Shown here one piece after another: positions 1-34,526 of a stretch of 35,899 nt of DNA; the stretch's first letter is position 1; each line of letters starts with the position of its first letter. The stretch comes from Paludibacteraceae bacterium (lineage in GTDB: Bacteria > Bacteroidota > Bacteroidia > Bacteroidales > Paludibacteraceae), in contig JAFYWK010000077.1 of assembly GCA_017558065.1 (NCBI GenBank), positions 1 to 35,899 of the forward strand, in the 5' to 3' direction. The position numbers and the translations under genes were made by a program. The notes beneath the pieces are model-generated. The model did not search any database. It was given only the letters and a program-made list of their open reading frames with translations, and was not told where the DNA came from.

Positions 1-57
1 GAGGGGTAGCGAAGAGGAGGGGTGGCGAAGGGGAGGGGTGGCGAAGAGGGAGGGGTG
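1..57. repeat. 16-bp-period tandem repeat, (partial) four units
   Basis: The 14-base core GAGGGGTGGCGAAG occurs at 17-30 and 33-46. A one-mismatch copy (GAGGGGTAGCGAAG) is at 1-14 and a partial copy at 50-57. Spacings are 16, 16 and 17 bp. The array touches the window edge and may extend further left. It lies upstream of the first promoter, with no gene visible. It belongs to the same class of short intergenic tandem repeats seen throughout this window. Confidence 0.85.
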
Positions 58-112
58 AAACGGTAGAGAACACACTTTTGACATATGTAAGTATCACAAA
101 AAAAGTCAAAAT

Positions 113-144
113 ATTGCACATATCAACAAAAAATACTACCTTTG
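113..144 (+). promoter_or_regulatory. Bacteroidota-type promoter for the first gene
   Basis: ATTG at 113-116 (an imperfect upstream TTTG), 20 bp, then TACCTTTG at 137-144. This matches the TTTG-N19/20-TAnnTTTG promoter of this phylum. The 7-bp inverted repeat TTTTGAC/GTCAAAA (76-82 and 105-111) lies just upstream and could be an operator, which is only a guess. Confidence 0.6.
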
Positions 145-158
145 TCGCCGAAAAGCGT

Positions 159-241
159 GAGAGCGTGTACTACTAACACGAAAGCATGTACTACGACAAC
201 GAGAGCGTGCACCATGACAACGAGAGGTGCACTACTGACAC
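159..241. repeat. 21-bp-period tandem repeat in a 5' leader, four units
   Basis: Units are 159-179, 180-200, 201-221 and 222-241 (the last one base short). They share a GAGAGCGTG-like head and a tail resembling CTACTACGACAAC. The array lies between the promoter at 113-144 and the start codon of the first gene, so it should be transcribed as part of an approximately 140-nt leader. A minus-strand open frame across it encodes Val/His-rich repeats and looks like a by-product of the repeat. Confidence 0.85.
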
Positions 242-294
242 GTAGGAACAAACCAAGAGACAAACAGCAATAAAAAAAAGAACAAGTGTACAGA

Positions 295-894
295 ATGATG
301 AAACGAATAACCTTTATTCTCGCGTGCCTATTGTGCACGATTACAATGTTAGGAGAGGAGCATTTGATGTTTCGATCCCTGCCCATCGATGGTGATTTGA
401 AAACCGCAGTGAAAACCGTCAAGAAGTGGGGATTTATGGGCATGAAAATCAAGAATGTCGCAGCTTTGATGGGAAAATTGGACAACGAAGATGTGATACT
501 CACCCTCATGGCAACCCCAGAGAGCCATACCTTATTTTCGGTCACCATTATCTACGAGGGTGCAAAGCAATGGGATGATTCTTGGGCTGAGTATCAAAAC
601 ATTAACGCGGCTGTTGCGGCTCAATATGGCGAGCCAACCGAAATTATTAGCCAGTGGGAATCACCTTATTCCATGGATAACAATCCTATGCAAGCATTCA
701 AAGAGGACAAAGTCACTTATAGCAGCATGTACACTGCCCAAGGAGGAAAAGTGGTTGTAAATATGGTGTATATTGAGGAAAAGATATGTACAATAGTCGC
801 CTATATTGACGAACAGAACGCAGCCCTATACAAAGCCGAAGGCGGTACTGAGAACATAATAGACGAGAATGCAGCCCTCAATATTGAGGAGTGA
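295..894 (+). CDS. Small exported protein of unknown function
   Basis: 199 residues. I do not recognise the family. The N-terminus (MMKRITFILACLLCTITMLG) is a signal peptide with a basic start and hydrophobic core; a likely mature start is near the EE that follows. The rest is soluble, mixed alpha/beta, ends in an acidic tail, and has no visible catalytic motif. An upstream in-frame GTG at 286 gives three extra residues; ATG 295 (or ATG 298) is preferred because it begins the canonical MMKR/MKR signal peptide. It is probably monocistronic: its own promoter at 113-144, a leader with a 21-bp repeat, and a hairpin terminator after the stop. A periplasmic or surface location is inferred. Confidence 0.75.
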   Translation: MMKRITFILACLLCTITMLGEEHLMFRSLPIDGDLKTAVKTVKKWGFMGMKIKNVAALMGKLDNEDVILTLMATPESHTLFSVTIIYEGAKQWDDSWAEYQNINAAVAAQYGEPTEIISQWESPYSMDNNPMQAFKEDKVTYSSMYTAQGGKVVVNMVYIEEKICTIVAYIDEQNAALYKAEGGTENIIDENAALNIEE

Positions 895-923
895 GAGATG
901 CGGTATAATAAAATAGCGTATAA

Positions 924-961
924 AATAATAGGGCGCGTCTTAACGGACACGCCCTATTATT
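924..961. terminator. Bidirectional hairpin terminator
   Basis: A 16-bp stem (924-939 with 946-961) has one mismatch and a 6-nt loop. The ends are A/T-rich, so both strands offer a T-rich tail. It separates two convergent genes and can serve both. Confidence 0.8.
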
Positions 962-978
962 ATTTAAGGATGAGTAAC

Positions 979-1284
979 TTAAAAATCATTGTGTGACTCA
1001 CAGCCATCTGCATCACCATCAGCTGTTTTCGCATAGCTAACAACAGCCTTGTTGCCACTTTGCTTGTAAACCTCTTGCAGCGTACGGACAACATGGCTCT
1101 CTGTATCCCAAGCATACATTGTACCATCTAAGATGCCAGCATTTGAGATAGTGAAAGTCCAGCACTTGAATTCGGTGTTGTCTAACTCGTCAGGTTCAAG
1201 ACTCATGATATCGAGTCCTTTCTTCTCGCAGCCCGTCAAAGCGAGAGCTGCTACTGCAATAAATGCAAATAAAAACTTTTTCAT
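979..1284 (-). CDS. Small putative lipoprotein
   Basis: 101 residues. The N-terminus has a lipoprotein signal: a KK start, a hydrophobic core and the lipobox LTGC with the acceptor Cys at residue 19. The mature part of about 80 residues begins CEKKG and contains the segment FKCWTFTISNAG. I do not recognise a family; many small Bacteroidales lipoproteins look like this. It has its own promoter at 1325-1356 (minus strand) and shares the hairpin terminator at 924-961 with the convergent upstream gene. An envelope location is inferred from the lipobox alone. Confidence 0.75.
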   Translation of the reverse strand: MKKFLFAFIAVAALALTGCEKKGLDIMSLEPDELDNTEFKCWTFTISNAGILDGTMYAWDTESHVVRTLQEVYKQSGNKAVVSYAKTADGDADGCESHNDF

Positions 1285-1324
1285 GTGTGTTGTTATTTAG
1301 TATGTCATGGTACTTTTTCGGTTG

Positions 1325-1356
1325 CAAAGGTACTATATTTTTTTCACATAGACAAA
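1325..1356 (-). promoter_or_regulatory. Promoter of the small lipoprotein gene
   Basis: Minus-strand TTTG (plus 1353-1356), 20 bp, then TACCTTTG (plus 1325-1332). It is about 40 bp upstream of the lipoprotein ATG, and lies back to back with the tryptophanase promoter. Confidence 0.75.
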
Positions 1357-1392
1357 TAAAAATCATTTTTTTGATGTCTTAACGGAAAATAA

Positions 1393-1424
1393 TTTGTGTA
1401 TTCGCATTTTTTTTTGTACCTTTG
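1393..1424 (+). promoter_or_regulatory. Promoter of the tnaA operon
   Basis: TTTG at 1393-1396, 20 bp, TACCTTTG at 1417-1424, followed by CAGC. The start codon is at 1471, so the leader is only about 40 nt. That leaves no room for a tnaC-like leader peptide with Rho sites as in E. coli. Confidence 0.8.
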
Positions 1425-1470
1425 CAGCACCTTAATAGTTATTAGGAATTTTTAACCTTATATAAACACC

Positions 1471-2847
1471 ATGGAATTACCTTTTGCAGAATCGTGGAAA
1501 ATTAAGATGGTAGAGCCCATCAAGAAATCCACCCGCGCAGAGCGCGAACAATGGCTGAAAGACGCCAAGAACAACATCTTTATGCTCCGCAGCGAGCAAG
1601 TTTACATCGACCTTTTGACCGACTCGGGTACAGGCGCTATGTCTGACCGCCAATGGGCAGCATTGATGCTGGGCGATGAGAGTTATTCGGGTAGTAAGTC
1701 GTTCTTTGAGTTGAAGGACACGATTACTCGTATCACCGGTTTTGAGTATGTGATCCCTACCCACCAAGGTCGTGCAGCGGAGAACGTACTCTTCTCGCAC
1801 CTCGTAAAAGAGGGACAAGTCATCCCTGGCAACGCGCACTTTGATACGACTAAGGGACATATTGAGGCGCGCAAAGCGCACGCGATAGATGTGACTATCA
1901 AAGAGGCGAAGGATACCCAGTTGGAGATTCCATTCAAGGGTAATGTGGATCTGGAGCACCTGGAGCAGATATTGAAGGATAACCCTGGCAATGTGCCATT
2001 TATGGTATTGACCGTAACGAATAATACCGTAGGTGGTCAGCCCGTTTCGATGAAGAATATCCGCGAGACATGCGAATTGTGCCACAAGTATGGCGTGCCA
2101 GTGAATATGGACTCTGCGCGCTTTGCGGAGAACGCGTATTTCATCAAGACCCGCGAGGAGGGATATGCCGACAAGAGCATTCAAGAGATTGCCAAGGAGA
2201 TGTTCTCCTATGCGGATAGCATGACGATGTCCGCTAAGAAGGACGGAATCGTCAATATGGGCGGATTCATCGCAACAAATCGTGAAGATTGGTACGAAGG
2301 TTGCAAGCGCTATTGTATCCCATTTGAGGGCTTTATCACATATGGTGGCATGAACGGTCGCGATATGGCAGCTTTGGCCGTTGGATTGGAGGAAAATACG
2401 CAGTTTGACATGTTGCAAACGCGTATTCATCAGGTGGAGTATTTGGCGGAATTACTCGATGAATACGGCATTCCTTACCAACGCCCTGCAGGTGGTCATG
2501 CTATTTTTGTGGATGCGGATAAGGTGCTGACGCATGTGCCCATTGAGGAGTTCCCTGCGCAGACACTGACTTGCGAACTGTACTTAGAGGCAGGTATCCG
2601 AGCGTGCGAGATTGGTTATATCTTGGCAGACCGCGATCCCGAGACACGCGAGAACCGCTTCTCTGGTCTAGATTTAGTTCGCCTCTGCATCCCTCGTCGC
2701 GTATATACGGATAATCACATGAAAGTGATTGCTGCAGCGTTGAAGAATGTGTATGACCGTCGCGAGACGATTACCCGCGGTTTGGCCATCACAAAAGAAG
2801 CGCCATTGATGCGCCATTTCACCGTTGAATTGGAGCGATTAGGATAA
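1471..2847 (+). CDS. tnaA: Tryptophanase (L-tryptophan indole-lyase)
   Basis: 458 residues, full length. It is a PLP enzyme that cleaves L-tryptophan to indole, pyruvate and ammonia in the cytosol. The PLP lysine is in MSAKKDG (K257 by analogy with the tyrosine phenol-lyase family). The conserved THQGRAAEN and GGQPVSM motifs are present. Two positions separate tryptophanase from tyrosine phenol-lyase: D125 in HFDTTKGH (Thr in tyrosine phenol-lyase) and GIRACEIG where the phenol-lyase has an Arg/Met (GVRSMERG). Both favour tryptophanase. It is the first gene of a tight cluster, with the deacetylase start codon 2 bp after its stop, and no promoter or terminator is seen before the ftsK promoter. 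No tnaB-like permease is adjacent. Confidence 0.95.
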   Translation: MELPFAESWKIKMVEPIKKSTRAEREQWLKDAKNNIFMLRSEQVYIDLLTDSGTGAMSDRQWAALMLGDESYSGSKSFFELKDTITRITGFEYVIPTHQGRAAENVLFSHLVKEGQVIPGNAHFDTTKGHIEARKAHAIDVTIKEAKDTQLEIPFKGNVDLEHLEQILKDNPGNVPFMVLTVTNNTVGGQPVSMKNIRETCELCHKYGVPVNMDSARFAENAYFIKTREEGYADKSIQEIAKEMFSYADSMTMSAKKDGIVNMGGFIATNREDWYEGCKRYCIPFEGFITYGGMNGRDMAALAVGLEENTQFDMLQTRIHQVEYLAELLDEYGIPYQRPAGGHAIFVDADKVLTHVPIEEFPAQTLTCELYLEAGIRACEIGYILADRDPETRENRFSGLDLVRLCIPRRVYTDNHMKVIAAALKNVYDRRETITRGLAITKEAPLMRHFTVELERLG

Positions 2848-2849
2848 AT

Positions 2850-3569
2850 ATGAGATCAAAAATATGGATTTTGTTATGCCTTTGCGGCATGCTATTATCC
2901 ACCCACGCGACGCAAGCCGCTGAGCGATGGTTGGAGGGTTACAAGAAAGTACTCGTGATTGGTGCGCACCCCGATGATCCAGAGACCATGTGCGGCGGCA
3001 CGATGATCAAACTGCGCGAAATGGGTGTAGAGGTAGTTTCTGTGTATTTCACTGGTGGAGAGGCAGGTATCTCTGGTAAGACGCACGAGGAGTCGCGTAC
3101 CATTCGCACCGCCGAAGCCACTAAAGCATGTGAGATGATGGGGGTACGTCCCGTGTTCATGACACAGATTGACGGCAATGCAGAAGTCAATAAGGCACGT
3201 TATGCAGAGATGAAAGCCCTGATTGAAGCGGAGAAGCCCGATATGGTGATTACTCACTGGCCCATCGACTCGCACCGCGACCATCGCGTATGCTCTATCC
3301 TTGTGTATGACGCTTGGCGACAAACAGGTTACAGTTTTGACCTCTATTACGGTGAGGTGATGACAGGTCTGCAAACACAGACTTTTGCGCCCAACCACTG
3401 GGTGAACATCACCGAGCAACACGAGCAGAAAGTGAAAGCCTACTACAGCCACAAGAGCCAAGATATGCCTGTGGTACAAGAGTGGCATGACGCCATGGAA
3501 ATACTCCGCGGCATGGAGTGCCATACCAAATATGCTGAAGCATTTGTGCAACAAGTGTGGAAGGAGTGA
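2850..3569 (+). CDS. Secreted PIG-L (LmbE-like) family deacetylase
   Basis: 239 residues. An N-terminal signal peptide (to about residue 23, ending TQAA) points to export. The PIG-L/LmbE zinc-site motifs are present: GAHPDDPE at 38-45 (His40 and Asp43 as metal ligands, Asp42 as likely base) and SHRDH at 141-145 (third His ligand). The family removes acetyl groups from N-acetylglucosamine-type substrates or acts on related amides. The natural substrate here is unknown; cell-wall sugars, glycans or dietary compounds are all possible. The start codon lies 2 bp after the tnaA stop, so it is probably co-transcribed and translationally coupled. It is followed directly by a 7-bp tandem repeat. Confidence 0.88.
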   Translation: MRSKIWILLCLCGMLLSTHATQAAERWLEGYKKVLVIGAHPDDPETMCGGTMIKLREMGVEVVSVYFTGGEAGISGKTHEESRTIRTAEATKACEMMGVRPVFMTQIDGNAEVNKARYAEMKALIEAEKPDMVITHWPIDSHRDHRVCSILVYDAWRQTGYSFDLYYGEVMTGLQTQTFAPNHWVNITEQHEQKVKAYYSHKSQDMPVVQEWHDAMEILRGMECHTKYAEAFVQQVWKE

Positions 3570-3625
3570 GGTTAAAGGTGAGAGGTTAAAGGTTAAAGGT
3601 TAAAGGTGAGAGGTGAAAGGCAAGG
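3570..3625. repeat. 7-bp tandem repeat, eight units, between two genes
   Basis: Eight consecutive heptamers with no slippage: GGTTAAA, GGTGAGA, GGTTAAA x3, GGTGAGA, GGTGAAA, GGCAAGG. The array begins at the base after the stop codon of the deacetylase gene and ends 3 bp before the GntP start codon, so the whole gap is repeat. The purine-rich units could double as a ribosome-binding region. Confidence 0.95.
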
Positions 3626-3628
3626 ATT

Positions 3629-4924
3629 ATGAATAGTGCATTGGCGGCAGTGATTGGACTGCTACTTTCGATTGTATTGATTATCAAAAAGGTATCACCC
3701 GTCTTCAGTCTGATGTTGGGTGCTATTGTCGGCGGACTACTGGCTGGTTGGGGATTGGAAACGACCGTTACCCATATGATTGGCGGAGTCAAGGATATAA
3801 CCCCCGCCATCGTGCGCATTTTGGCAGCAGGTGTGCTGACAGGCATGCTTGTCAAGACGGGCGCTGCCACCACTATCGCCAAGAGTATCATCAAGGCATT
3901 GGGCGAGAGATATATCTATCTGGCATTAGCCATCTCGGCAATGATACTGACGGGCATGGGTGTGTTCATTGATGTAGCAGTGATTACGATTGCGCCTATC
4001 GCTATTATCATGGGTAGCAGATTGCGTTTGTCGAAATTCAAACTGCTACTGGCCATGATTGGTGGCGGCAAATGCGGTAATATCCTATCGCCGAACCCCA
4101 ATACGATTATCGCTGCGGAGAACTTCGATGCTCCCCTCTCATCCGTGATGGCAGCAGGTATTGTGCCTGCACTAATCGGATTGATTGTCACGGTGTTTGT
4201 TATTGTTCCGTTGATTCCTAAAGGCGATCTGATGGGCGAGGAGGCGAAAGGCGAAAAAGCACCCCACGACACGAGTGCCGTCGGGGACCCCGAAGAGGCG
4301 AAAGGCGAAGAGGCATTGCCGGCTCTATGGCGCAGTCTTTTAGGTCCTATTGTCACCATTATTCTATTAGCACTGCGCCCCATTGCGGGGATTGTGATTG
4401 ATCCGATGATTGCCTTGCCTGTAGGCGGTGTAGTGGGTATTATTGCTACTGGCAAATGGCGCGAGACGGCAGCATGCCTGAGCTATGGATTGGAGAAGAT
4501 GTCGGGTATTGCGATCCTGCTGGTCGGCACAGGTACGTTGGCAGGAATCATCAAGGCATCGGCGATTAAGGATGTGCTGGTGGGCATGTTGGCAGATTGG
4601 AGCAACGGCGGTACGTTTATGGCACCTATCGCAGGTGCGCTGATGTCCGCAGCTACCGCTTCTACGACCGCCGGCGCTACTATTGCTTCGGCTTCGTTTG
4701 GCGAAGCCATTTTGGCAGCAGGGGTAACCGCCGTATGGGGTGCAGCCATGACCAATGCGGGTGCTACCACCCTGGACCACTTGCCACATGGTTCGTTCTT
4801 CCATGCCACGGGTGGATCGATGGGATTCTCCGTCAATGAACGTTTGCGACTGATTCCATATGAGACATTGGTCGGATTGATATTGACGTTGGGTAGTATC
4901 GGTATGTATTTTATTGTAGGTTAA
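3629..4924 (+). CDS. GntP-family sugar-acid permease with an in-frame repeat insert
   Basis: 431 residues, many hydrophobic segments, an inner-membrane proton symporter of the GntP (gluconate/glycerate) family. Family-like stretches include MIGGGKCGNILSPNPNTI (143-160) and, near the C-terminus, TNAGATTLDHLPHGSF. The neighbour encodes glycerate kinase, so D-glycerate or a related sugar acid is the likely substrate (inference). Residues about 204-231, in a loop between membrane segments, are a hydrophilic Glu/Ala/Lys/Gly insert encoded by two pairs of the heptamer GGCGAAA/GGCGAAG. The same heptamer family fills the intergenic gaps on both sides of this gene. The last Gly codon and the TAA stop fall inside the downstream repeat array. 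Confidence 0.9.
   Translation: MNSALAAVIGLLLSIVLIIKKVSPVFSLMLGAIVGGLLAGWGLETTVTHMIGGVKDITPAIVRILAAGVLTGMLVKTGAATTIAKSIIKALGERYIYLALAISAMILTGMGVFIDVAVITIAPIAIIMGSRLRLSKFKLLLAMIGGGKCGNILSPNPNTIIAAENFDAPLSSVMAAGIVPALIGLIVTVFVIVPLIPKGDLMGEEAKGEKAPHDTSAVGDPEEAKGEEALPALWRSLLGPIVTIILLALRPIAGIVIDPMIALPVGGVVGIIATGKWRETAACLSYGLEKMSGIAILLVGTGTLAGIIKASAIKDVLVGMLADWSNGGTFMAPIAGALMSAATASTTAGATIASASFGEAILAAGVTAVWGAAMTNAGATTLDHLPHGSFFHATGGSMGFSVNERLRLIPYETLVGLILTLGSIGMYFIVG
4243..4310 (+). repeat. In-frame heptamer repeat inside the permease gene
   Basis: GGCGAAA twice in tandem at 4243-4256, and again GGCGAAA GGCGAAG at 4297-4310. About 40 bp of C/G-rich DNA between them includes an imperfect palindrome (CCCCACGAC and GTCGGGG arms). 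The two copies encode EEAKGE twice. The heptamers match those in the intergenic arrays at 3570-3625 and 4919-4964. Confidence 0.9.
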
Positions 4925-4964
4925 AGGCGAGAGGTTAAAGGTGAAAGGTTAAAGGCGAGAGGTA
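4919..4964. repeat. 7-bp tandem repeat spanning a stop codon and abutting a start codon
   Basis: Heptamers in register: GGTTAAA, GGCGAGA, GGTTAAA, GGTGAAA, GGTTAAA, GGCGAGA, then GGTA immediately before the ATG at 4965. The first unit contains the final Gly codon and the TAA stop (4922-4924) of the permease gene. The last units form the purine-rich region where ribosome binding for glycerate kinase would occur. Confidence 0.95.
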
Positions 4965-6113
4965 ATGAAGATTGTTATAGCATCCGATTCATTTAAGGGT
5001 TCGTTGAGTTCGATAGAAGTAGCGCAGGCGGCAACACGCGGTATTAAAGCCGTATATCCCGATTGTGATGTGGTGGCTGTGAATGTGGCAGATGGTGGCG
5101 AAGGCACCGTAGAAGCCGTGGACGATGCCTTGGGCGGCGAGATTGTACGTTGCACGGTTAGTGACCCGTTGGGTCGCCCAATACAAGCGCGCTACGGCAT
5201 TGCAGGCGAAAAAGCCATCATCGAGATGGCTGCTGCCAGCGGTTTACCCCTACTCCAACCAGAAGAACGCAATCCATGGATGACCTCCACTTATGGCACA
5301 GGGGAGATAATCATGGATGCTATTCAAAGAGGTTGCCGTCAGTTTTTGGTGGGTATTGGAGGTAGTGCGACCAACGATGCGGGCACGGGTATGTTGCAAG
5401 CATTGGGATTCAAATTCTACGATTTCAACGGACAAGAGATTACTGATTGCCGAGGTGGCAGATTGCAAGATATTGCCGATTTAGACGATACTTTTGTGCC
5501 AAAAGCAGTACGTGAAGCCCAGTTTATCGTAGCATGTGATGTGGACACGCCCTTCTGCGGTCTAGAAGGCGCTGCCCCAGTGTTCGCTCCGCAAAAAGGA
5601 GCCGATGCAGAGATGGTGCAGAAATTGGATAGAGGTATGGCTTCTTTTGCCCATGTCATCGAAAATAAATACGGTATCAATATCGTACCCGTGGCTGGTG
5701 CTGGTGCAGCAGGTGGCATGGGTGGTGCATTCAGAGCATTCCTGGCTGCCAAACTCCAACGAGGCATAGAGATGGTACTGGATTCTATCGATTTCAACGC
5801 AATAATCCAAGATGCAGACTTGATTATTACAGGCGAAGGGAAGATTGATTTCCAAACAGCCAAAGGTAAGACTGCTGCGGGCGTACTGGCTCGCGCTAAA
5901 CAGCAAGGCATACCTGTAATAGCCATCGGTGGATGCGTGGAAATGTGCGAGAGTGTCGAGCAGATGGGATTTGCAGGCATTTACCCTATCACGGAAGAAA
6001 AACTTCCCCTCGAAATAGCCATGCGAGCGGATGTCGCCGCCAAGAATGTCGAAAAGACTGTTAAAAAAATTTGCGTATGTCATAAATTTTTCGTACCTTT
6101 GCAGCCAAAATAA
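4965..6113 (+). CDS. glxK: Glycerate kinase (type I, GlxK/GarK family)
   Basis: 382 residues. It phosphorylates D-glycerate with ATP, giving a phosphoglycerate that enters glycolysis. The type I family signatures are visible: IASDSFKGSLSS near the N-terminus, NVADGGEGTVEA (residues about 40-51), GIGGSATNDAGTGMLQALG (about 129-147) and ITGEGKIDFQTAKGK near the C-terminus. Paired with a GntP permease, it suggests a sugar-acid uptake and catabolism module. It is the last gene of the tnaA cluster. The final dozen or so residues (ICVCHKFFVPLQPK) are unlike the family and are encoded by the promoter of the next gene, so they may be a tolerated read-through extension. Confidence 0.93.
   Translation: MKIVIASDSFKGSLSSIEVAQAATRGIKAVYPDCDVVAVNVADGGEGTVEAVDDALGGEIVRCTVSDPLGRPIQARYGIAGEKAIIEMAAASGLPLLQPEERNPWMTSTYGTGEIIMDAIQRGCRQFLVGIGGSATNDAGTGMLQALGFKFYDFNGQEITDCRGGRLQDIADLDDTFVPKAVREAQFIVACDVDTPFCGLEGAAPVFAPQKGADAEMVQKLDRGMASFAHVIENKYGINIVPVAGAGAAGGMGGAFRAFLAAKLQRGIEMVLDSIDFNAIIQDADLIITGEGKIDFQTAKGKTAAGVLARAKQQGIPVIAIGGCVEMCESVEQMGFAGIYPITEEKLPLEIAMRADVAAKNVEKTVKKICVCHKFFVPLQPK
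6070..6101 (+). promoter_or_regulatory. Promoter of the ftsK operon, inside the glycerate kinase gene
   Basis: TTTG at 6070-6073, 20 bp, TACCTTTG at 6094-6101, followed by CAGCC. It lies wholly within the last 45 bases of the glycerate kinase reading frame. The ftsK start at 6156 leaves a leader of about 48 nt. No further promoter is seen before trxB. Confidence 0.8.
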
Positions 6114-6155
6114 AAAAAATAGTCCTAACAACAACTATGAATTAAACGTAGATTT

Positions 6156-8651: not shown

Positions 8652-8652
8652 C

Positions 8653-9210: not shown

Positions 9211-9253
9211 TTGAAACTCTTATAACATTTGAAACTTTTAAAACTTATATAAC
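9211..9253. repeat. 9-bp tandem repeat filling the gap before trxB
   Basis: Nine-base units TTGAAACTC, TTATAACAT, TTGAAACTT, TTAAAACTT and a partial ATATAAC run from 3 bp after the stop of the LolA-like gene to the trxB start codon. The same TTGAAAC/TAAAACT words and period recur in frame inside trmO (10634-10681). Confidence 0.85.
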
Positions 9254-18689: not shown

Positions 18690-18935
18690 TTACTCTGCCA
18701 CTTCTGCTACTGGAGCCTCTGGGCATTGAGTTTTGCAAGCTTCAGCCTTTTTGCAACATTCAGCTTTCTTAGGACACTCTGCCTTCTTGCAGCATTCGGC
18801 TTTCTTAGGGCACTCAGCTTTTTGGCAGCACTCAGTAACAGGTTTATCACAGCATTTGTCTTGTTGGCAATTTGCCTTCTTGCAGCAACCCATAGCAGCA
18901 ACAGCTATGGCAGCAATCAATAAAATCTTCTTCAT
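18690..18935 (-). CDS. Small Cys/Lys-rich putative lipoprotein
   Basis: 81 residues with 15 cysteines. The N-terminus (MKKILLIAAIAVAAMGCC) is a signal peptide with a plausible lipobox (AMGC, acceptor Cys17). The mature part has CC pairs and then a six-residue repeat KAEC(P/C)K in five copies (encoded by an 18-bp repeat), ending in a Pro/Ala/Glu tail. I do not recognise a named family; the pattern resembles a metallothionein-like or redox-buffering protein in composition only. Support for this strand: its own promoter at 19008-19039, the signal peptide, and a shared terminator. The plus-strand frames over the same DNA lack these. It may bind metal at the envelope (inference), next to a His-rich TonB receptor. 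Confidence 0.75.
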   Translation of the reverse strand: MKKILLIAAIAVAAMGCCKKANCQQDKCCDKPVTECCQKAECPKKAECCKKAECPKKAECCKKAEACKTQCPEAPVAEVAE

Positions 18936-23387: not shown

Positions 23388-23420
23388 ATAACCATACTAT
23401 AACCATACAATAACCACACT
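23388..23420. repeat. 11-bp tandem repeat, three units
   Basis: ATAACCATACT, ATAACCATACA, ATAACCACACT in register, with a weaker unit before them. It sits between the endonuclease/phosphatase-family gene and its terminator. Confidence 0.75.
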
Positions 23421-26635: not shown

Positions 26636-26707
26636 TAGTTTTTAGATATTTCTCCCATATTGATGAATTTAGTGGTTAATATGTGCAAAGGCACGCCTTT
26701 TTAATAC

Positions 26708-26753
26708 AAAAAGCGCAGACCTCCGTTGATTATTCACCAATAGAGGTCTTCGC
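26708..26753 (-). terminator. Minus-strand terminator of the candidate RNA unit
   Basis: An 11-bp stem with one mismatch (plus 26713-26723 with 26743-26753) is followed on the minus strand by TTTTT. Read leftward, it lies between the candidate RNA below and the C10 protease promoter. Confidence 0.7.
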
Positions 26754-27016: not shown

Positions 27017-27022
27017 CGACTG

Positions 27023-27054
27023 CAAAGGTAGTGAATTATTTTGGATTGAGCAAG
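27023..27054 (-). promoter_or_regulatory. Promoter with no protein gene downstream
   Basis: Minus-strand CTTG (plus 27051-27054, imperfect TTTG), 20 bp, TACCTTTG (plus 27023-27030), followed by CAG. It points leftward into a region without a protein gene. Confidence 0.65.
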
Positions 27055-27144
27055 AAAAGTTGCTGTTTTTTTGTAGTTTTTAAGGTTGGTTATGGAGATC
27101 AATGTTTAATCAAAGTTCGCTCAACCACCAGTGAAGTGCCAGGA

Positions 27145-27210
27145 ATTGTGCGCTTATTGTGCGTGTATTGTCCGTCTATTGTGCGTGAATAGTGCGTGTA
27201 TTGTGCGTAA
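27145..27210. repeat. 11-bp tandem repeat, six units in perfect register
   Basis: ATTGTGCGCTT, ATTGTGCGTGT, ATTGTCCGTCT, ATTGTGCGTGA, ATAGTGCGTGT, ATTGTGCGTAA. There is no insertion or deletion across 66 bp, although bases vary within units. The period is close to one helical turn. It lies between the rhomboid terminator and the promoter of the candidate RNA. Confidence 0.92.
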
Positions 27211-27261
27211 GATATAAGAGAAAAGCAAAACACACAGTGCTCGATTTGCTAAAGAAGCAAA

Positions 27262-27305
27262 TGAAAAAAAATCGCCATTCATGTCCGAAAACACGAATGG
27301 CGATT
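27262..27305 (-). terminator. Terminator of the rhomboid gene
   Basis: A perfect 11-bp stem AATCGCCATTC/GAATGGCGATT (plus 27270-27280 with 27295-27305), then a run of T on the minus strand (plus A run 27264-27270). Confidence 0.85.
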
Positions 27306-27310
27306 GATTC

Positions 27311-27382
27311 TACAACAATTCGAGAACGTACAACAGTTAAAGAAGTTTCAACAGTTCGAGTGGCTACAACGGCTCGTGGTAG
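27311..27382. repeat. 18-bp tandem repeat, four units, covering the rhomboid stop codon
   Basis: Units at 27311-27328, 27329-27346, 27347-27364 and 27365-27382, of the type TACAACAGTTCGAGAAGT. The last unit encodes, on the minus strand, the final residues (YHEPL) and the TAG stop of the rhomboid protease. This suggests the protein's end was set by the repeat. Confidence 0.85.
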
Positions 27383-28182: not shown

Positions 28183-28201
28183 TTGATTGATGATTTCTAT
28201 G

Positions 28202-28232
28202 CAAAAGTAGTAAAAAACAATGAAAACACAAA
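28202..28232 (-). promoter_or_regulatory. Promoter of the rhomboid gene
   Basis: Minus-strand TTTG (plus 28229-28232), 19 bp, TACTTTTG (plus 28202-28209). The leader is about 15-20 nt. Confidence 0.72.
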
Positions 28233-28249
28233 CAAAAACTGTGCTATAA

Positions 28250-28289
28250 GGCAGAAAAATGCAAAAAATGGCAGAAAAATGACATTTTT
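28250..28289. promoter_or_regulatory. Direct and inverted repeats between divergent promoters (possible operator)
   Basis: The 12-mer GGCAGAAAAATG occurs at 28250-28261 and 28270-28281, 20 bp apart. The second copy runs into the perfect inverted repeat AAAAATG-A-CATTTTT (28275-28289). They lie between the rhomboid and HU promoters. A protein-binding role is a guess based on spacing and position. Confidence 0.4.
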
Positions 28290-28301
28290 TCAGTCAAAAT
28301 A

Positions 28302-28332
28302 TTTGCAGAATTAGAAAATTGTTGTAACTTTG
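28302..28332 (+). promoter_or_regulatory. Promoter of the HU gene
   Basis: TTTG at 28302-28305, 19 bp, TAACTTTG at 28325-28332, followed by CATGC. The start codon at 28398 leaves a leader of about 60 nt. Confidence 0.78.
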
Positions 28333-28397
28333 CATGCAATTCGTTGGAAAAGCCAATGTAAAATACTTAATGTTTAATAATTTAATCTAATTTTCGT

Positions 28398-28661
28398 ATG
28401 AATAAAGCAGATTTGGTAGCTGCTATTGCAGCTGAGGCTGGTTTGACAAAAGTACAAGCACAAGGTGCTCTTGAGGCAACTGTAAACGCAATCGCTGGTG
28501 CACTCCAAAAGGGTGAGAGCGTACAATTGGTAGGTTTCGGTACTTTCTCTGTAGTTGAGAAAGCTGCTCGCCAAGGCGTTAACCCTGCTACTGGCGCTAA
28601 GATTGAGATCGCTGCTAAGAAAGTAGCTAAGTTCAAAGCTGGTAAAGGTTTGGCTCTCTAA
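28398..28661 (+). CDS. HU-family DNA-binding protein
   Basis: 87 residues, typical HU size. It bends and compacts DNA as a dimer. The N-terminal helices (MNKADLVAAIAAEAGLTK), the GFGTFSVVEKAARQGVNPATGAKIEI arm (with the RxGxNPxTG motif) and the C-terminal KKVAKFKAGKGL helix are all present. It is monocistronic with a strong promoter and terminator, as expected for an abundant protein. Codons look optimised (many GCT, GTA and AAG). Confidence 0.96.
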   Translation: MNKADLVAAIAAEAGLTKVQAQGALEATVNAIAGALQKGESVQLVGFGTFSVVEKAARQGVNPATGAKIEIAAKKVAKFKAGKGLAL

Positions 28662-28680
28662 TCCAATTATGTAGATACTG

Positions 28681-28712
28681 CGAGTTGCTCTTTTGGGGGC
28701 AACTCGTTTTGT
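28681..28712 (+). terminator. Terminator after the HU gene
   Basis: Stem CGAGTTGCTC/GGGCAACTCG (28681-28690 with 28697-28706, one wobble), then TTTTG. Confidence 0.85.
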
Positions 28713-28752
28713 GTCAAAAACCATTCTACACAATACAACACAATTCTACAAT

Positions 28753-29328
28753 ATGCTCAACATCATCCTCTGCGGTGCCCCAGGTAGTGGCAAGGGCACA
28801 CAATCTGACCTTATCGTACAAAAATACGGATTGCAACACCTCTCTACGGGTGATGCGCTTCGCGCCGAAATCAAATCGGGCAGCGAACTCGGCAAAGAGA
28901 TTGGCGAACTCATTGCAGGCGGCAACCTCGTACCAGACCACAAGATGATTCACCTCATCGCACGCTACCTCGATAACCTGCCAGCTGATTGCAAAGGTGT
29001 TATCTTCGACGGTTTCCCACGCACTGTGGCTCAAGCCGAAGCACTGGAACTGCTGCTCGAACGCCGCCAAATGAAGGCAGTGTTGCTTGACCTCTTTGTA
29101 GAGGAAGACGAGGTAATCAAACGTCTTCTCAACCGCGGCAAGACTAGCGGTCGCGCCGACGACAACTACGAGACCATCAAAAAACGTCTCCTAGTATATC
29201 AAACAGAGACCAAGCCTGTTTGCACATACTACCTCCATCGTCATAACTACTTTGCTATCAATGGCAACTACTCTATGGAGGACACCTTCAGCCAAATCGA
29301 CAACATCCTCAACATCATACAAAAATAA
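28753..29328 (+). CDS. adk: Adenylate kinase
   Basis: 191 residues from ATG 28753. An in-frame ATG at 28693 would start inside the HU terminator and is rejected. It interconverts AMP, ATP and ADP. The P-loop GAPGSGKGT is at residues 8-16, STGDALR and DGFPRT motifs bind AMP, and the NRGKTSGRADD segment is a short LID lacking zinc cysteines. The obg gene begins 3 bp after the stop, the adk-obg pair being common in Bacteroidota. No consensus promoter is visible in the 40 bp before it, so it may depend on read-through past the HU terminator. Confidence 0.96.
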   Translation: MLNIILCGAPGSGKGTQSDLIVQKYGLQHLSTGDALRAEIKSGSELGKEIGELIAGGNLVPDHKMIHLIARYLDNLPADCKGVIFDGFPRTVAQAEALELLLERRQMKAVLLDLFVEEDEVIKRLLNRGKTSGRADDNYETIKKRLLVYQTETKPVCTYYLHRHNYFAINGNYSMEDTFSQIDNILNIIQK

Positions 29329-29331
29329 AAC

Positions 29332-30504
29332 ATGGCATCTTCCTCGTTTATCGATTATGTAAAGATCTACTGCCGCTCGGGCAAAGGCGGACCAGGTAGC
29401 ATGCACTTCCACCGTGCGAAATATGTGCCCAAAGGCGGACCCGATGGCGGCGACGGCGGACGAGGAGGACATATCATCCTTCGCGGCAATCGCAACCTGT
29501 GGACACTGCTGCACCTCAAGTACCAGAAGCATATCTTCGCCACCGATGGTGGCAAAGGTGGCGCTTCGCGCTCATACGGCAAGGATGGCGAGGACAAGAT
29601 CATCGAAGTACCTTGCGGTACTGTAGTTTACAACGGTGATACAGGTGAGTGGATGTGCGAAATCAAAGAGCACCAAGAGGAGATCATTCTCTTCCGTGGT
29701 GGAAAAGGAGGATTGGGAAACTGGCATTTCCGTACCGCGACGAATCAAGCTCCCCGTTATTCGCAACCAGGTGAACCATGCATGGAAGCCAATGTCATTC
29801 TCCAGCTCAAAGTGCTCGCCGACGTAGGTCTGGTGGGTTTCCCCAATGCGGGCAAATCCACTCTACTCTCCGTAGTCAGCGCAGCCAAACCAGAGATTGC
29901 GGACTATCCGTTTACTACGCTGACCCCCCAACTCGGTATCGTCTCATATCGCGACAACCAATCCTTCTGTATGGCGGATATCCCTGGTATCATAGAGGGC
30001 GCTGCCGAAGGACGCGGACTGGGACTTCGTTTCTTGCGCCATATCGAGCGCAACGCCGTGCTACTCTTCATGGTGCCTGTTATCACAGAGGACATCAAGA
30101 AGGAGTATGAGATCCTGCTCGCCGAGTTGGAGAAATACAATCCTCAACTGCTCACCAAAGCACGCATCTTGGCTATCTCCAAATGCGACATCGCTGATCC
30201 TGAGATTGACCTCGACAAACTGACAAAAGACCTATCAGAGGAGTTAGAAATACCCGTCATTACCTTCTCATCCGCCAGCGGCATGGGTATAACCGAACTC
30301 AAAGATATGCTGTGGGAGGAACTCAACAAAGAGCAGAACCAAGTTATCGACATCTCCCACGCGCCTATCGAAGTCAAACTCATTGAGCGCGACGAGGAAC
30401 CTGAAGAAGAAGACGACGAACCACACACCATCTACCTCAACGAGGTGGAAGAGGAGTGGGATCTCGACAAATATCGCGGCATAGGTTGGGACACTCAAGA
30501 ATAA
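29332..30504 (+). CDS. obg: GTPase Obg (CgtA)
   Basis: 390 residues. This ribosome-associated GTPase acts in 50S assembly and the stringent response. The N-terminal Gly-rich Obg fold (about 1-160) has [13 protein letters not shown]. The G domain has P-loop GFPNAGKS (169-176), switch [11 protein letters not shown] (about 216) and SKCD as the NKxD equivalent. The C-terminus is acidic ([10 protein letters not shown]). It is coupled to adk (3-nt gap). The following ClC frame probably begins within its last 50 bases. Confidence 0.96.
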
Positions 30505-32264
30505 CATACGACCGCTTCATCGCTTGGCGTGAGCAACATATCCCACAGAAGAACCTCGTTCTCATTCTGAGTTTCTTTGTGGGCGCATTAGCATCTTGTG
30601 CAGCGCAGTTGCTCAAGTTCATGATTCACGGAATCCAACATTTCGTGGAGAACCAACTCATCGCCCAAGACCACTGGTGGTATCTCATCACCCCTATGAT
30701 TGGTATCACCCTCGCGGGGCTCTTTGTCAAATACATTGTCAAGGACGACATCTCGCACGGTATCACCAAGATTCTCTACGCCATCTCACAGCGCAAATCC
30801 ATCATCAAGATTCACAACATGTGGTCGTCCCTGGTGGGTTCGGCACTGACTATCGGTTTTGGCGGTTCGGTCGGAGCTGAGGCACCTATCGTGCTCACAG
30901 GTTCGGCTATCGGCAGCAATCTTGCCAAACTCTTCCGCCTTGACCAAAAGACCATGATGCTCATGATTGGTTGTGGTGCCGCAGGTGCGGTAGGTGGCAT
31001 CTTCCAAGCCCCTATAGCGGGTCTGGTCTTCACTCTCGAAGTGCTGATGATGGACCTTACCATGACCTCCGTGGCGCCATTGCTCATCTCTTCAGTCACG
31101 GCTACCGCTATCTCCTTCATAGCCAACGGACAAGAGGCCATGTTCCCGCTGGTGAATAGTGAACCTTTCTTCGTGGAGCGCCTGCCTTGGTATATCATTT
31201 TAGGTATCCTATGCGGACTGGTGTCGCTCTACTTCACACGCGGCATGAACCGCTTGGAGCAACTCTTCAAACGCCATGTCCAGAACATCTGGGTGAAGTT
31301 CCTCGTGGGTGGTTCGGCATTGGGCTTGCTGCTTTTCCTCTTCCCTCCACTCTATGGCGAGGGATACGATGTCATCAAGCAACTCATCAACGGCGATTCT
31401 GTTTCTGCCATTGCCAACAGTCCTTTTGAGCGTTTTGGCACGGGCTCGTGGATACTGGTAGGCTATTTCTCTGCCATTGTGCTGCTCAAGATTTTCGCTT
31501 CGGTTGCCACCAACGGTGGTGGCGGTGTAGGCGGAATCTTCGCGCCTTCACTTTTCATGGGTGCTATCGTCGGATTTATCTGTGCCCGACTCATGAACAT
31601 GCTCGGCATCGGTGTTCCCGAAGCCAATTTTGCATTAGCGGGTATGTCAGGTCTCATGGCAGGTGTCATGCACGCCCCTCTGACGGGTATCTTCCTCATT
31701 GCCGAACTCACAGGCGGCTATCACCTCTTCATGCCACTCATGGCGGTGGCGGTTGTCTCCTACCTAACGATTAAAATCTTCGAGCCTCATAGTCTGTACG
31801 CCATGCGTTTGGCACAAAAAGGCGAACTGCTCACGCACAACAAAGACCGCTCTGTCCTCACGCTCATGAAGATGGAGAATGTCCTCGAGACCGACCTTCG
31901 CACCCTCAACCCCGACATGACTTTGGGCGAACTGGTTAAGGTAATATCGCAGAGCCATCGCAACATCTTCCCAGTGGTAAACGAGGAAGGCAAGTTGCTA
32001 GGAATCTTGCTCTTAGACGAGGTGCGCAACATTATGTTCCAACCTCGCCTATATAACCGCTTCACAGTCAAGCAACTCATGAACTCGCCGCAGGCCATCC
32101 TCACCGACACCATGCCTATGGGCAAGGTGATGGAGATCTTCGAGGATACAGGCGCATGGAACCTGCCCGTAGTGGATGAACAAAAAAAATACCTCGGATT
32201 TGTCTCGAAATCCAAGATATTCAACTCTTACCGCCACGTCCTCGTACACTTCTCCGAGGAGTGA
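30456..32264 (+). CDS. ClC-family chloride channel or antiporter with two CBS domains
   Basis: Up to 602 residues. The start is uncertain: the only canonical choice in frame near the expected N-terminus is GTG 30456, overlapping obg by 49 bp. The next ATG (30624) would remove part of the first helix. Membrane core (about 30-430) with GSVGAEAP (137-143), whose Glu142 matches the gating glutamate, and GIFAP (360-364). The C-terminal cytoplasmic part has two CBS domains (about 476-530 and 538-595), which usually bind adenine nucleotides. Whether it is a channel or a proton-coupled exchanger cannot be told from this. It lies in the adk-obg transcript. Just downstream is an interspersed repeat (32271-32325). 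Confidence 0.9.
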
Positions 32265-32270
32265 TCTTGC

Positions 32271-32325
32271 CTATTGGATAATGGACGCTTCGCTAATGGA
32301 CGCCCTTTGGGCTATTGGATAATGG
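32271..32325. repeat. Direct-repeat element downstream of the ClC gene
   Basis: The 14-mer CTATTGGATAATGG occurs at 32271-32284 and 32312-32325. Between them is GGACGCTTCGCTAATGGACGCC, in which GGACGC itself repeats. The 13-mer GGACGCTTCGCTA and the following CGCCCT recur in opposite orientation at 23508-23544. It lies in the gap between the ClC gene and the convergent xseB. Confidence 0.85.
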
Positions 32326-32335
32326 TTTCATAGCC

Positions 32336-32521
32336 TCACTCCTTTGGAGTGACAATACTCTCCATTTTCCCCTCCCAATCGGTCAACTGCTTTTGACAGA
32401 AAGATAGCAGTTCTTTCGCCTCTTTGGCTTTCACTTGATAGGCATCCATACTCAACGCCTCCGATTGCTCCAATTCACTCACAATCTGCTCAATTCGTTG
32501 TATTGCTTCATCGTAACTCAT
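32336..32521 (-). CDS. xseB: Exodeoxyribonuclease VII small subunit
   Basis: 61 residues, typical size. XseB is the small helical subunit that wraps XseA in exonuclease VII, a single-strand DNA nuclease. The family pattern is clear: MSYDEAIQRIEQIVSELEQSEALSMDAYQVKAKEAKELLSFCQ, shown here only as landmarks IVSELE and LSFCQKQL. The partner gene xseA is not adjacent, unlike in many bacteria, and is not seen in the window. It lies at the end of the minus-strand tsaC-sugar transferase run, separated from it by a heptamer array with no promoter match. Confidence 0.88.
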   Translation of the reverse strand: MSYDEAIQRIEQIVSELEQSEALSMDAYQVKAKEAKELLSFCQKQLTDWEGKMESIVTPKE

Positions 32522-32530
32522 AATACCTTC

Positions 32531-32565
32531 CTTTACACTTTACACTCTACACTTTACACCCAACA
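32531..32565. repeat. 7-bp tandem repeat between the sugar transferase and xseB
   Basis: CTTTACA, CTTTACA, CTCTACA, CTTTACA, CCCAACA in register. The array ends at the base before the sugar-transferase stop codon (32566) and begins 9 bp from the xseB start, so the intergenic gap is almost wholly repeat. Confidence 0.9.
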
Positions 32566-33861
32566 CTATTTCCCTTTGCCATCCAGAATCACCCCAATCG
32601 TGTGGAAGAGAATCTTAAAGTCCAATTGCAAGGACATATTCTCCACATAGACTATGTCATAATTCAAGCGTTGCACCATCTTTTCAATCGTATCGGTATA
32701 GCCCACTTTCACAGGTCCCCAACTGGTCAGACCTGGACGAATCTTATATAGCAAACAATAGTAAGGTGCCTGTTTCTCTATCTGCTCAATGAAATACCTA
32801 CGTTCAGGGCGTGGACCCACGATAGACATATCGCCCTTTAACACATTCCACATCTGTGGCAGCTCATCCAAACGATATTTACGCAGTATTTTTCCTATGT
32901 TCGTTACACGCGGATCATGGTCTGCACTCAATTGTGGCACGCCATCTTCGGCGTTATGACACATGGTGCGGTACTTCAAAATATTAAAAGGAATACCATG
33001 CAAACCTATACGTTCCTGCTTGTAGATAGCAGGTCCTTTGGAGGTACACCATACCAACACAAATATCACTATATACAGAGGAGACAACACCAACAGCGAT
33101 ACCAATGAGAAAATAATATCAAAAGCCCGCTTCATACACAATTGGCTATCACTCATCTTATGCTCTGTGATACGAACCAGAGGCATGTCTTCTACCCCTT
33201 TGATACTGGCTGCGCCAGTGAGCATGTCATACAAACGAGGTTTGACTGCAATCTCCACGCCATATGGATACAACTGATTGATAATCGTGTAAATATCCTT
33301 CTCGTTGGCAGTGGCAGGCAAATCTATAATCACCTCATCATACACTTCTTCCTGCTGAAGGCGCTTGAAATTGACAATATCCTCCAGACTATGCAGCGTA
33401 TATTGCTTTGTGTTCTTCGCAACACGCCAACGCGAACAAGTCGTTGCTAATACGCGTGGGATATAACTCAACACAAACTGCAAACAGATCAGCATCACCA
33501 ACGAAGTCATATAATTGCGATAACTGCTGACTGGATCGTCAATGATAATCAAGAAAAACGCACCTAACGCAATCAACAAGGCAGAAACCAATGTCGTCCG
33601 AAACTCCTTGGCATAGTCCTTCCTAAAGGGACGAATGTAGTAGCCCGATAGATAATATATCACGATACACCCTAATGGATACAACAGCAATGGGCGATAG
33701 AAATCAAATATAGGAATCAGTATCGTATCAACACTAAAAACCTTTCCTTCGTGCACCAACCAACGAAAACCAAGAAATGCCACCCACACTAAGAGCGAAG
33801 ATAGCAGATCTAAAAAGATATAGGTAAATTGTTGTTTGCGATATGAAGTTAAAAAAGTCAT
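32566..33861 (-). CDS. Polyprenyl-phosphate sugar-phosphate transferase (initiating glycosyltransferase)
   Basis: 431 residues. The N-terminal half has several membrane segments (about 11-32, 55-75, 90-108, 118-135). The C-terminal half is the bacterial sugar transferase domain (about 243-431): KRAFDIIFSL membrane re-entry, YKQERIG, KYRTM, RKYRLDELPQMWNVLKGDMSIVGPRPE (330-353 region, the catalytic Asp/Glu and Arg motif). Such enzymes move a sugar phosphate from a nucleotide sugar to undecaprenyl phosphate to begin capsule, exopolysaccharide or glycan assembly. The sugar is unknown. No other polysaccharide genes are near. Its start overlaps the tsaC stop by 4 bases (ATGA), so translation is coupled. 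Confidence 0.92.
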   Translation of the reverse strand: MTFLTSYRKQQFTYIFLDLLSSLLVWVAFLGFRWLVHEGKVFSVDTILIPIFDFYRPLLLYPLGCIVIYYLSGYYIRPFRKDYAKEFRTTLVSALLIALGAFFLIIIDDPVSSYRNYMTSLVMLICLQFVLSYIPRVLATTCSRWRVAKNTKQYTLHSLEDIVNFKRLQQEEVYDEVIIDLPATANEKDIYTIINQLYPYGVEIAVKPRLYDMLTGAASIKGVEDMPLVRITEHKMSDSQLCMKRAFDIIFSLVSLLVLSPLYIVIFVLVWCTSKGPAIYKQERIGLHGIPFNILKYRTMCHNAEDGVPQLSADHDPRVTNIGKILRKYRLDELPQMWNVLKGDMSIVGPRPERRYFIEQIEKQAPYYCLLYKIRPGLTSWGPVKVGYTDTIEKMVQRLNYDIVYVENMSLQLDFKILFHTIGVILDGKGK

Positions 33862-34442
33862 GGGCGAATGATAGTTATACGTTCTCTTTCATCAATCTTA
33901 ATGATGGACGACGGCAACTGGCGCGTAGTATCTTCACGACGAAACGCACACACATAATCCACCGCATCTAACAGTTCAGGATTGATTTCACTAAAAATCT
34001 TTGCAGCCGGTTCACCGCTGAAGTTGGCTGAAGTAGAAATAATAGGGCGACGCAATTGCTCACAAAGAGCCTTAGAAAAAGGTTCACTCGTAATGCGAAT
34101 CCCCACACTACCATCCTCTGCCAAGAGATTAGGCGCCAAATTACGCGCATTGGGATAGATAATCGTCAGCGGTCGTTGCCCCTCTGCTGCCTCCAATAGC
34201 ATCCATGCCGTTTCTGGCACTTGTTGCATATACCCCTGCAATTTGCCAGCTCCGTCAAGCAGCACAAGCATTGCCTTGCTATCTACACGCCTTTTTATTT
34301 CGTACACGCGCGCGACAGCCGCAGCATTAGTAGCATCGCAACCAATACCCCACACCGTATCAGTGGGATAAAGAATCACACCACCCTCACGCAACACACG
34401 GAGGGCCTGCTGTAAATCTTGTTTGTCGTAGCGATTTTCCAT
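33858..34442 (-). CDS. tsaC: L-threonylcarbamoyladenylate synthase (Sua5/YciO/YrdC family)
   Basis: 194 residues from ATG at 34442. The open frame extends to 34481 but the promoter downstream box lies at 34451-34458, so the longer start is untenable. It uses threonine, bicarbonate and ATP to make threonylcarbamoyl-AMP for the t6A37 modification of ANN-decoding tRNAs. Motifs: GGVILYPTDTVWGIGCDA, VYEIKRR and PIISTSANFSGEPA. There is no C-terminal Sua5 domain, so it is the short TsaC type. The predicted transcription start is only a few bases before the ATG, so the message may be nearly leaderless. It heads the tsaC, sugar transferase, xseB run. Confidence 0.92.
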   Translation of the reverse strand: MENRYDKQDLQQALRVLREGGVILYPTDTVWGIGCDATNAAAVARVYEIKRRVDSKAMLVLLDGAGKLQGYMQQVPETAWMLLEAAEGQRPLTIIYPNARNLAPNLLAEDGSVGIRITSEPFSKALCEQLRRPIISTSANFSGEPAAKIFSEINPELLDAVDYVCAFRREDTTRQLPSSIIKIDERERITIIRP

Positions 34443-34450
34443 TTTGACTG

Positions 34451-34482
34451 CAAAGATACAACAAAAAATGCACATGTGCAAA
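34451..34482 (-). promoter_or_regulatory. Promoter of tsaC, very close to its start codon
   Basis: Minus-strand TTTG (plus 34479-34482), 20 bp, TATCTTTG (plus 34451-34458), followed by CAG. The ATG begins 8 bases past the box. It settles the tsaC start and implies a leader of only about 0-5 nt. Confidence 0.75.
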
Positions 34483-34491
34483 TTTTTTGGA

Positions 34492-34526
34492 GGTTAAAGG
34501 CGAAAGGTTATAGGTTAGAGGCAAGA
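34492..34526. repeat. 7-bp tandem repeat upstream of tsaC
   Basis: Five heptamers in register: GGTTAAA, GGCGAAA, GGTTATA, GGTTAGA, GGCAAGA. The units are the same GGTTAAA/GGCGAAA types found around and within the GntP permease gene 30 kb away. It lies between the tsaC promoter and the terminator of the candidate small RNA. Confidence 0.9.

Follow-up and report, generated by a model that had tools for sequence, protein, structure and literature searches.

What places short, strictly phased tandem repeats in the gaps between bacterial genes, and is anything likely to read them? The question is raised by a stretch of 35,899 nucleotides from a gut bacterium of the Paludibacteraceae (assembly GCA_017558065.1, contig JAFYWK010000077.1; the whole stretch is called the window), in which a preliminary description, made from the letters alone, had listed at least ten such arrays with units of 7 to 21 bp. 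The window is the first part of contig 9 (G000:C9:1-35899) of an 83-contig draft genome of 2.44 Mb, referred to as G000. The whole analysis was computational; the genomes compared were drafts, mostly metagenome-assembled where they are named, and genes were called with a purpose-built hexamer scorer, with approximate start codons. We consider it probable that the arrays represent two phenomena. Class A, with the heptad GGYDARR as its dominant unit, would be a minisatellite which changes by slippage; class B, built from 11-mers of the frame ACGNNNNATAN, would be a recognised cis element read by a putative protein.

All ten stretches were periodic as had been described, by Tandem Repeats Finder and by direct reading. 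Each array was scored as a lag-match segment and compared with 60 dinucleotide-preserving shuffles of 50,781 intergenic bases of G000. Six arrays were never equalled (1-57, 159-241, 3570-3625, 23388-23420, 27145-27210 and 32531-32565). Three were weaker: per 50.8 kb the shuffle expectation was 0.18 for 4919-4964 at the same lag and 1.17 at any lag from 5 to 24; the respective values were 0.12 and 3.05 for 9211-9253, and 0.03 and 0.57 for 27311-27382. Taken alone, 34492-34526 was at chance level (1.32 and 21.5). GGYDARR, the unit of 34492-34526 and 4919-4964, was matched in 28-29 of 40 other G000 stretches, half of which had been chosen for holding it; the first 20 lie on heptad-bearing contigs and the next 20 are centred on heptads, which somewhat inflates heptad density. 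A motif-free lag scan with a score of at least 12 covered 435 kb of G000 (20 stretches plus the window, in which only about 3.8 kb lie outside called genes; 230 gaps). Lags 7, 9, 10 and 11 yielded 23, 7, 11 and 24 segments, respectively, versus 0-0.2 in shuffles, and further segments were recorded at lags 14, 18, 20, 21, 22 and 28. Shuffled intergenic DNA did not yield as many arrays, and the phase is far beyond chance. Arrays were present in 56 of the 230 gaps, i.e. 11.0 per 10 kb of gap, which bears out the notion of a genome-wide habit.

Is this habit peculiar to one genome? Seven metagenome-assembled Paludibacteraceae of ruminant guts are, by glycerate kinase (76-93% identity), the nearest named relatives of G000; their array density was 12.3 per 10 kb of gap (18 of 76 gaps). 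Ten loci of other Bacteroidales had 7.1 (14 of 98 gaps) and no lag-11 segments, and 61 loci mostly, not all, from other phyla had 0.58 (8 of 485 gaps); the figures of the different sample sets rest on different gene models. Among further species G014 had many 7-bp arrays, G011 had 8- and 11-bp arrays and few of 7 bp, and G028 had almost none. On account of these densities and species differences the arrays are a lineage trait with a period that varies by species. One 8-bp array of G011 (L160:12865-13086) extends over 222 bp, nearly the whole of a 230-bp gap; G011 prefers 8 bp and G000 7 bp.

The arrays had been regarded as one class, with units that differ between most loci. This view was not upheld. 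Those at 3570, 4919 and 34492 share a unit, and those at 27145, 32531, 9211 and 23388 were matched elsewhere; only 1-57, 159-241 and 27311-27382 are without a match in the sampled G000 stretches. Among these stretches copies of 27145-27210 were found in three (up to 98% identity) and matches to 9211-9253 and 23388-23420 in one each. Because unit families recur at unrelated loci, a single class with unrelated units was rejected. At least two unit families are dispersed, the GGYDARR heptads and the ACGNNNNATAN 11-mers, and they differ in gap size, orientation and tempo.

A gap-to-gap comparison of the sampled G000 stretches showed the 11-bp arrays to be copies of a small set of elements. The element at 27145-27210 (minus strand; ACGNNNNATAN frame, ACGCACAATAN type) is sense to both of its minus-strand neighbours, a rhomboid and a C10 peptidase gene, and two copies match it at 98%, one over 57 bp and the other over 55 bp. 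Copies of 55-69 bp had 94-98% identity and unrelated flanks; four TATCTATCGTA-type copies have five units each and shared edges with differing flanks. When read on the strand of the neighbouring genes, the 11-mer types share the frame ACGNNNNATAN. Therein ACG...ATA is constant, and dialects exist at the inner bases plus the eleventh (ATAG/TTAG, GTAG, CACA/GACA, TAGG/TAAC and GACG/GTCG). Several of them occur together in one genome, e.g. in G248. The other 11-bp array of the window (23388-23420, ACCAYACWATA), located in a convergent gap, is not an exact match of ACGNNNNATAN and weakly resembles one ATTGTGCG-type copy (L126).

Three units of the ACGNNNNATAN frame were found in 80 of 151 genus members; G033 alone had 180 matches versus 32 reversed-control matches in all 151 genomes together. 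In the order sample the frame was present in 3 of 393 genomes, that is, in 2 of 390 outside the genus. Taken singly, the TATCTANCGTN type was detected in 46 of 121 genus members, with up to 198 matches (G033; the first 100 of the 198 listed constitute 11 arrays of 8-14 units each) and not one match of the reversed control. The ATWGTGCGNNN type was detected in 15 of 121, with a few reversed-control matches in other genomes. Viral contigs contained no match for one 11-mer type.

Orientation was examined with 68 distinct arrays of at least three units in the sampled DNA, where some loci are orthologous or one per genome. In gaps between co-directional genes 40 arrays were sense and 3 antisense (p = 3e-9). 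The remaining arrays were in divergent (12) or convergent (8) gaps, at edges (4) and inside an open reading frame (ORF; 1). Limited to G000, G248 and G033 the sense share was 18 of 19. When separate patterns were used for each type, the TATCTA type gave 28 versus 2. Median distances to the stop of the upstream gene and to the start of the downstream gene were 68 and 120 nt, respectively (n = 40). Four or five units were present in 45 of the 68 arrays.

Are the elements kept at orthologous sites? The locus after pckA was found via the gene, not via the pattern. An ACGCAC-type array of about five units was present 66-154 nt past the stop codon in G248, G247, G039, G014 and G058, i.e. in 5 of 29 usable loci, and the arrays of G247, G014 and G058 are identical except for one position 4 and one position 11. 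In G000 pckA is followed by another type of 11-bp array. The pckA gene of G000 is split in the draft; the 5' part at window 34851-35897 (plus strand) is cut by the contig end and the 3' part is on contig 43. Downstream of the rhomboid gene 11-bp arrays were observed in 4 of 30 loci: G000, G252 (same type, inverted), G039 and G265 (other types). Two orthologous pairs that had been found by pattern keep five units, with 16 of 19 differences at positions 4 and 11. Counted per position, 16 of 20 comparisons differ at these two versus 3 of 90 at the remaining nine; the identity of the flanks is 74-87%. One element is identical in G248 and G054, and the sequence preceding it is unalignable. Base-for-base conservation across distant relatives had been named as a refuting observation; some 11-bp elements are nearly identical in near relatives, not across distant ones.

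Dispersal, orientation, modal unit number, uneven variation across the unit and near-restriction to one genus were computed directly. We picture class B as a dispersed cis element of mostly four to five head-to-tail 11-mers of the ACGNNNNATAN frame, situated between genes and running along transcription. A putative protein with an 11-nucleotide pitch would read it, on RNA or DNA, and the inner bases plus the eleventh would be the changeable part of the putative site. Orientation, modal unit number, two free positions and one-turn spacing are what would be expected of a site array for an oligomeric protein; from the sequences we infer both the reader and its effect. Because the ACG...ATA frame is fixed while dialects drift, several of them in one genome, element and putative reader may be co-evolving. 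Tentatively, and with somewhat less than even confidence, we propose that the (ACGNNNNATAN)n arrays constitute a novel kind of cis element that is oriented with transcription, confined almost to one Bacteroidales genus, with a putative reader protein of 11-nucleotide pitch. The element is apparently undescribed in the literature searched, which excludes most subscription journals. If a protein does read the 11-mers, they would form a genus-wide control layer in gaps which annotation ignores, and the dialects would make co-evolution of site and reader testable over some 80 species.

Several observations weigh against such a reader. The ACGCAC (ATTGTGCG) type by itself was less oriented (13 versus 5), and arrays were not closer to the gene whose direction matches (convergent 4 of 8, divergent 7 of 12). 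The cross-species counts are not independent because some of the compared arrays are orthologous. The array after pckA is absent from G000, G054 and G038 and from the other 24 of the 29 usable loci, and is dispensable since it is missing in most. The pckA arrays of G248 and G039 vary at further positions, too. Moreover, the contrast between positions 4 and 11 and the rest is inflated because the search pattern fixes the other nine positions in at least two units. TAnnTTTG motifs, which we take to be a promoter-like consensus, stand before some arrays and after others, and the genes next to 11-mers are mixed.

Other candidates were tried and given up. Polarity of the replication strand is unlikely to cause the orientation of the 11-mers; the signs at four sites of one 521-kb G248 contig were -, +, -, +, judged without a skew analysis. 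A constant distance to a promoter was not seen, with TAnnTTTG on either side. Neither was a single regulon; judged by eye from protein starts, the neighbours include genes for secreted proteins as well as TrmD-, MraY- and acyl-carrier-like ones. A structured RNA was rejected on Rfam and folding results: within the window and 14 of the 20 G000 stretches sampled first no array was covered by an Rfam family, and four 11-mer arrays folded no better than shuffles (z from -0.01 to 0.98).

In class A, GGYDARR is the common unit of three window arrays, all on the plus strand. The array at 3570-3625 has seven units and a degenerate eighth one and takes up the gap between a PIG-L gene (2850-3569) and a GntP permease gene (3629-4924). 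The array at 4919-4964 (six full units; weak by lag score) extends from the last GntP codons to just before the glycerate kinase start (4965). The degenerate heptads at 34492-34526, not significant alone, were assigned by unit identity; adjoining them, at 34532-34604 on the minus strand, is a match to the Bacteroidetes FopS small RNA family of Rfam (76 bits, cutoff 56). A second heptad type, CTTTACA (32531-32565), had matches in six other G000 stretches. Three GGYDARR units plus GG were matched 161 times in the G000 genome versus 2 times for the reversed pattern; the commonest units were GGTTAAA, GGTTAGA, GGCGAGA and GGCGAAA. In the sampled G000 stretches 52 of 77 arrays detected by lag 7 alone show GG at a 7-bp period. 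In the genus survey GGYDARR was matched in 35 of 61 members, with at least ten matches in 17, a patchy distribution. The reversed control was high in some of these genomes (reversed versus real: G035 27 versus 29, G054 20 versus 55, G027 18 versus 0). The family sample had a match in 40 of 200 genomes (17 of 165 outside the genus) and the order sample in 39 of 295 (37 of 293 outside), the sole rich genome there being G442 with 114 matches. In G190 the units, among the matches listed, were nearly all GGTGAAA. Twenty-two viral stretches match one heptad pattern.

Heptad copy number changes between species by whole units. In the orthologous gap before GntP, with conserved flanking genes, 8, 7, 5, 5 and 3 units were counted; in four relatives the sequence upstream of GntP is unrelated. 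The gap before glycerate kinase contains 8, 6, 5, 4 and 1-2 or 0 units. When orthologous gaps of G000 and G054 were compared, 25 of the 295 examined could be anchored on both sides in the sampled part of G054 (median flank identity 83%); an array was in G000 only in 10, in G054 only in 2, in both in 4 and in neither in 9. The GntP gene itself has an in-frame insertion rich in GGCGAAA-like sequence (window 4265-4330), which is absent in five of seven relatives and shorter in two.

Placement was analysed with 85 heptad arrays from five samples, 58 intergenic and 27 inside called ORFs. Outside G000 the samples comprised only 4 to 12 arrays each; the seven named loci had been chosen by glycerate kinase and the G248 stretches lie around 11-mers. 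Within 50 nt of a stop codon the G-strand was sense in 32 arrays and antisense in 6 (G000 alone 17 versus 5). The array was closer to the 5' neighbour in 40 of 58 (p = 0.005), in G000 in 25 of 36 and outside G000 in 15 of 22 (p = 0.13). Of the 41 arrays in co-directional gaps 29 were sense, in G000 alone only 14 of 22 (p = 0.29). Twenty sense arrays were located at most 50 nt before a start, and 8 antisense arrays were before starts. Inside called ORFs 22 of 27 were in sense, and units free of stop codons amounted to 53 of 89 there versus 46 of 201 between genes (p = 3e-9).

These properties are consistent with minisatellites. Class A would comprise GGYDARR together with some other heptads and, probably, the arrays of 8, 9 and 10 bp. 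Its arrays would expand and contract by whole units in short gaps between genes, where much is tolerated, with replication slippage as the most likely mechanism; selection would remove expansions that break genes. Whole-unit change between species together with tolerance by position suggests this mechanism. Slippage had been named among possible causes, and it fits the 7-bp arrays, with unit numbers that differ between species in the orthologous GntP and glycerate kinase gaps. By itself it leaves the shared unit family of class A unexplained, which tells against slippage as the full account: copying between loci or a shared preference must be added because the GGYDARR set recurs at unrelated loci. 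Even if all arrays were neutral, a unit family common to many loci would need an ill-understood copying process or preference.

Arrays of this kind have precedents. The short tandemly repeated repetitive (STRR) heptamers of filamentous cyanobacteria are heptamer arrays with several families per genome, in another phylum and with units other than those of class A. In PMC4679880 TAACTGA heptamers are described as direct 7-nt arrays, largely intergenic, often just before start codons and patchy between species, and close strains differ by indels that proceed in steps of 7 nt; the introduction of that paper attributes to Mrazek et al. 2007 the observation that heptanucleotide repeats are the commonest class in most genomes. 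Class A resembles them as direct 7-nt arrays mainly between genes (58 of 85 intergenic over the five samples) which change by whole units. The unit differs, TAACTGA there and GGYDARR dominant here, where a genome-wide search for TAACTGA was not made. According to the same paper TAACTGA is mostly forward before starts in the main species, whereas GGYDARR occurs in both orientations and is strongest after stops. GGGNATC heptads of Xanthomonas and Nostoc (Rehm 2015, PMC4692102) are reported to be present genome-wide with the sense G-strand close to or overlapping stop codons, and quadruplexes were measured. Class A likewise consists of G-rich heptads across the genome with a sense G-strand near stops; however, the GGGNATC unit has three Gs with measured quadruplexes, whereas class A has two, and none was predicted for the two window arrays. 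The heptamer arrays are of an already known kind (PMC4679880, PMC4692102), and the earlier statement that no named element matches was too strong for them. With them, a class that is still poorly explained gains an example from the Bacteroidales.

Could the heptads be quadruplexes or translation signals beside start and stop codons? The predominance of the sense G-strand beside stops, a placement as that of the GGGNATC heptads, and the 20 sense arrays close before starts would be in line with this. Yet ViennaRNA with quadruplexes switched on predicted 0.0 and -0.2 kcal/mol for the two window heptad arrays, versus -8.4 for a four-unit GGGAATC control; the 8 antisense arrays before starts, the 27 of 85 inside ORFs and the co-directional share of G000 do not fit either, and 9 sense cases are surroundings of GntP and glycerate kinase in the named relatives, partly the same orthologous gaps. 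We regard this explanation as very improbable. Because GGYDARR is placed similarly without a predicted quadruplex, the comparison suggests that quadruplex formation is not needed for the stop-codon placement of heptads. Artefacts of assembly or binning have a negligible probability. The draft is in 83 contigs and the array 1-57 is at a contig end, but the same families occur in many separately assembled species and at orthologous places, and the reversed controls were far lower overall.

A more general alternative is that all 7- and 11-bp arrays are neutral slippage in a mutation-prone genus, with periods given by polymerase or helix geometry and nothing that reads them. Several unrelated units and periods exist side by side, the occurrence of 11-bp arrays in co-directional, divergent and convergent gaps roughly follows gap length, and in most orthologous gap pairs arrays are not shared. 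Against it are unit families common to unrelated loci and many species and, for the 11-mers, the orientation of 40 versus 3, the modal unit number and the uneven variation across the unit; we consider it rather unlikely. Alternatively, the 11-mer arrays could be cores of non-autonomous mobile elements, moved by a transposase or by recombination, with an orientation reflecting insertion tolerance. The described precedent is BrickBuilt of Porphyromonas gingivalis, which has a 23-nt unit, small inverted-repeat ends and 19 copies in one strain (Klein 2015, PMC4596501). Like it, class B is a Bacteroidales element, dispersed between genes, with a tandem array between leader and tail; dispersed copies with unrelated flanks, a conserved leader and trailer at some arrays and presence or absence at the pckA site would fit as well. 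Unlike BrickBuilt as described there, class B has 11-nt units, mostly four to five, and is strongly oriented with genes. Inverted ends or target duplications were not noticed by eye in the alignments, no systematic search having been made, and one type was without a viral-contig match. Mobility as the whole explanation is in our judgement unlikely. A mobile origin of the 11-mer dispersal, by analogy to BrickBuilt, is possible and would be compatible with later use as a site. We continue to favour a slippage minisatellite in class A and a recognised cis element in class B.

The remaining arrays of the window are diverse. The 9-bp array (9211-9253) fills the gap from a LolA-like gene to a reductase gene; together with 3570-3625 it confirms that arrays may occupy whole gaps. 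The 16-bp array (1-57), at the contig end, the 21-bp array (159-241) and the imperfect 18-bp array (27311-27382), which overlaps the 3' end of the rhomboid gene, had no match in other sampled G000 stretches. A further 18-bp repeat (18731-18840) is situated within a small ORF on the minus strand (18690-18935) for which Pfam gave no match. By Pfam the window genes are ordinary for Bacteroidales: FtsK, GntP permease, glycerate kinase, CBM26 amylase, PglZ response regulator, C10 peptidase, rhomboid protease and Obg. Elsewhere in G000 a longer dispersed repeat (89% over 378 bp) is present in adjacent gaps of one stretch (L127:252-798, 1713-2246 and 3554-4364), and two gaps (L113:17771-18652 and L120:526-1347) contain imperfect copies of a common 21-bp periodic sequence, up to 84% identical over 123 bp.

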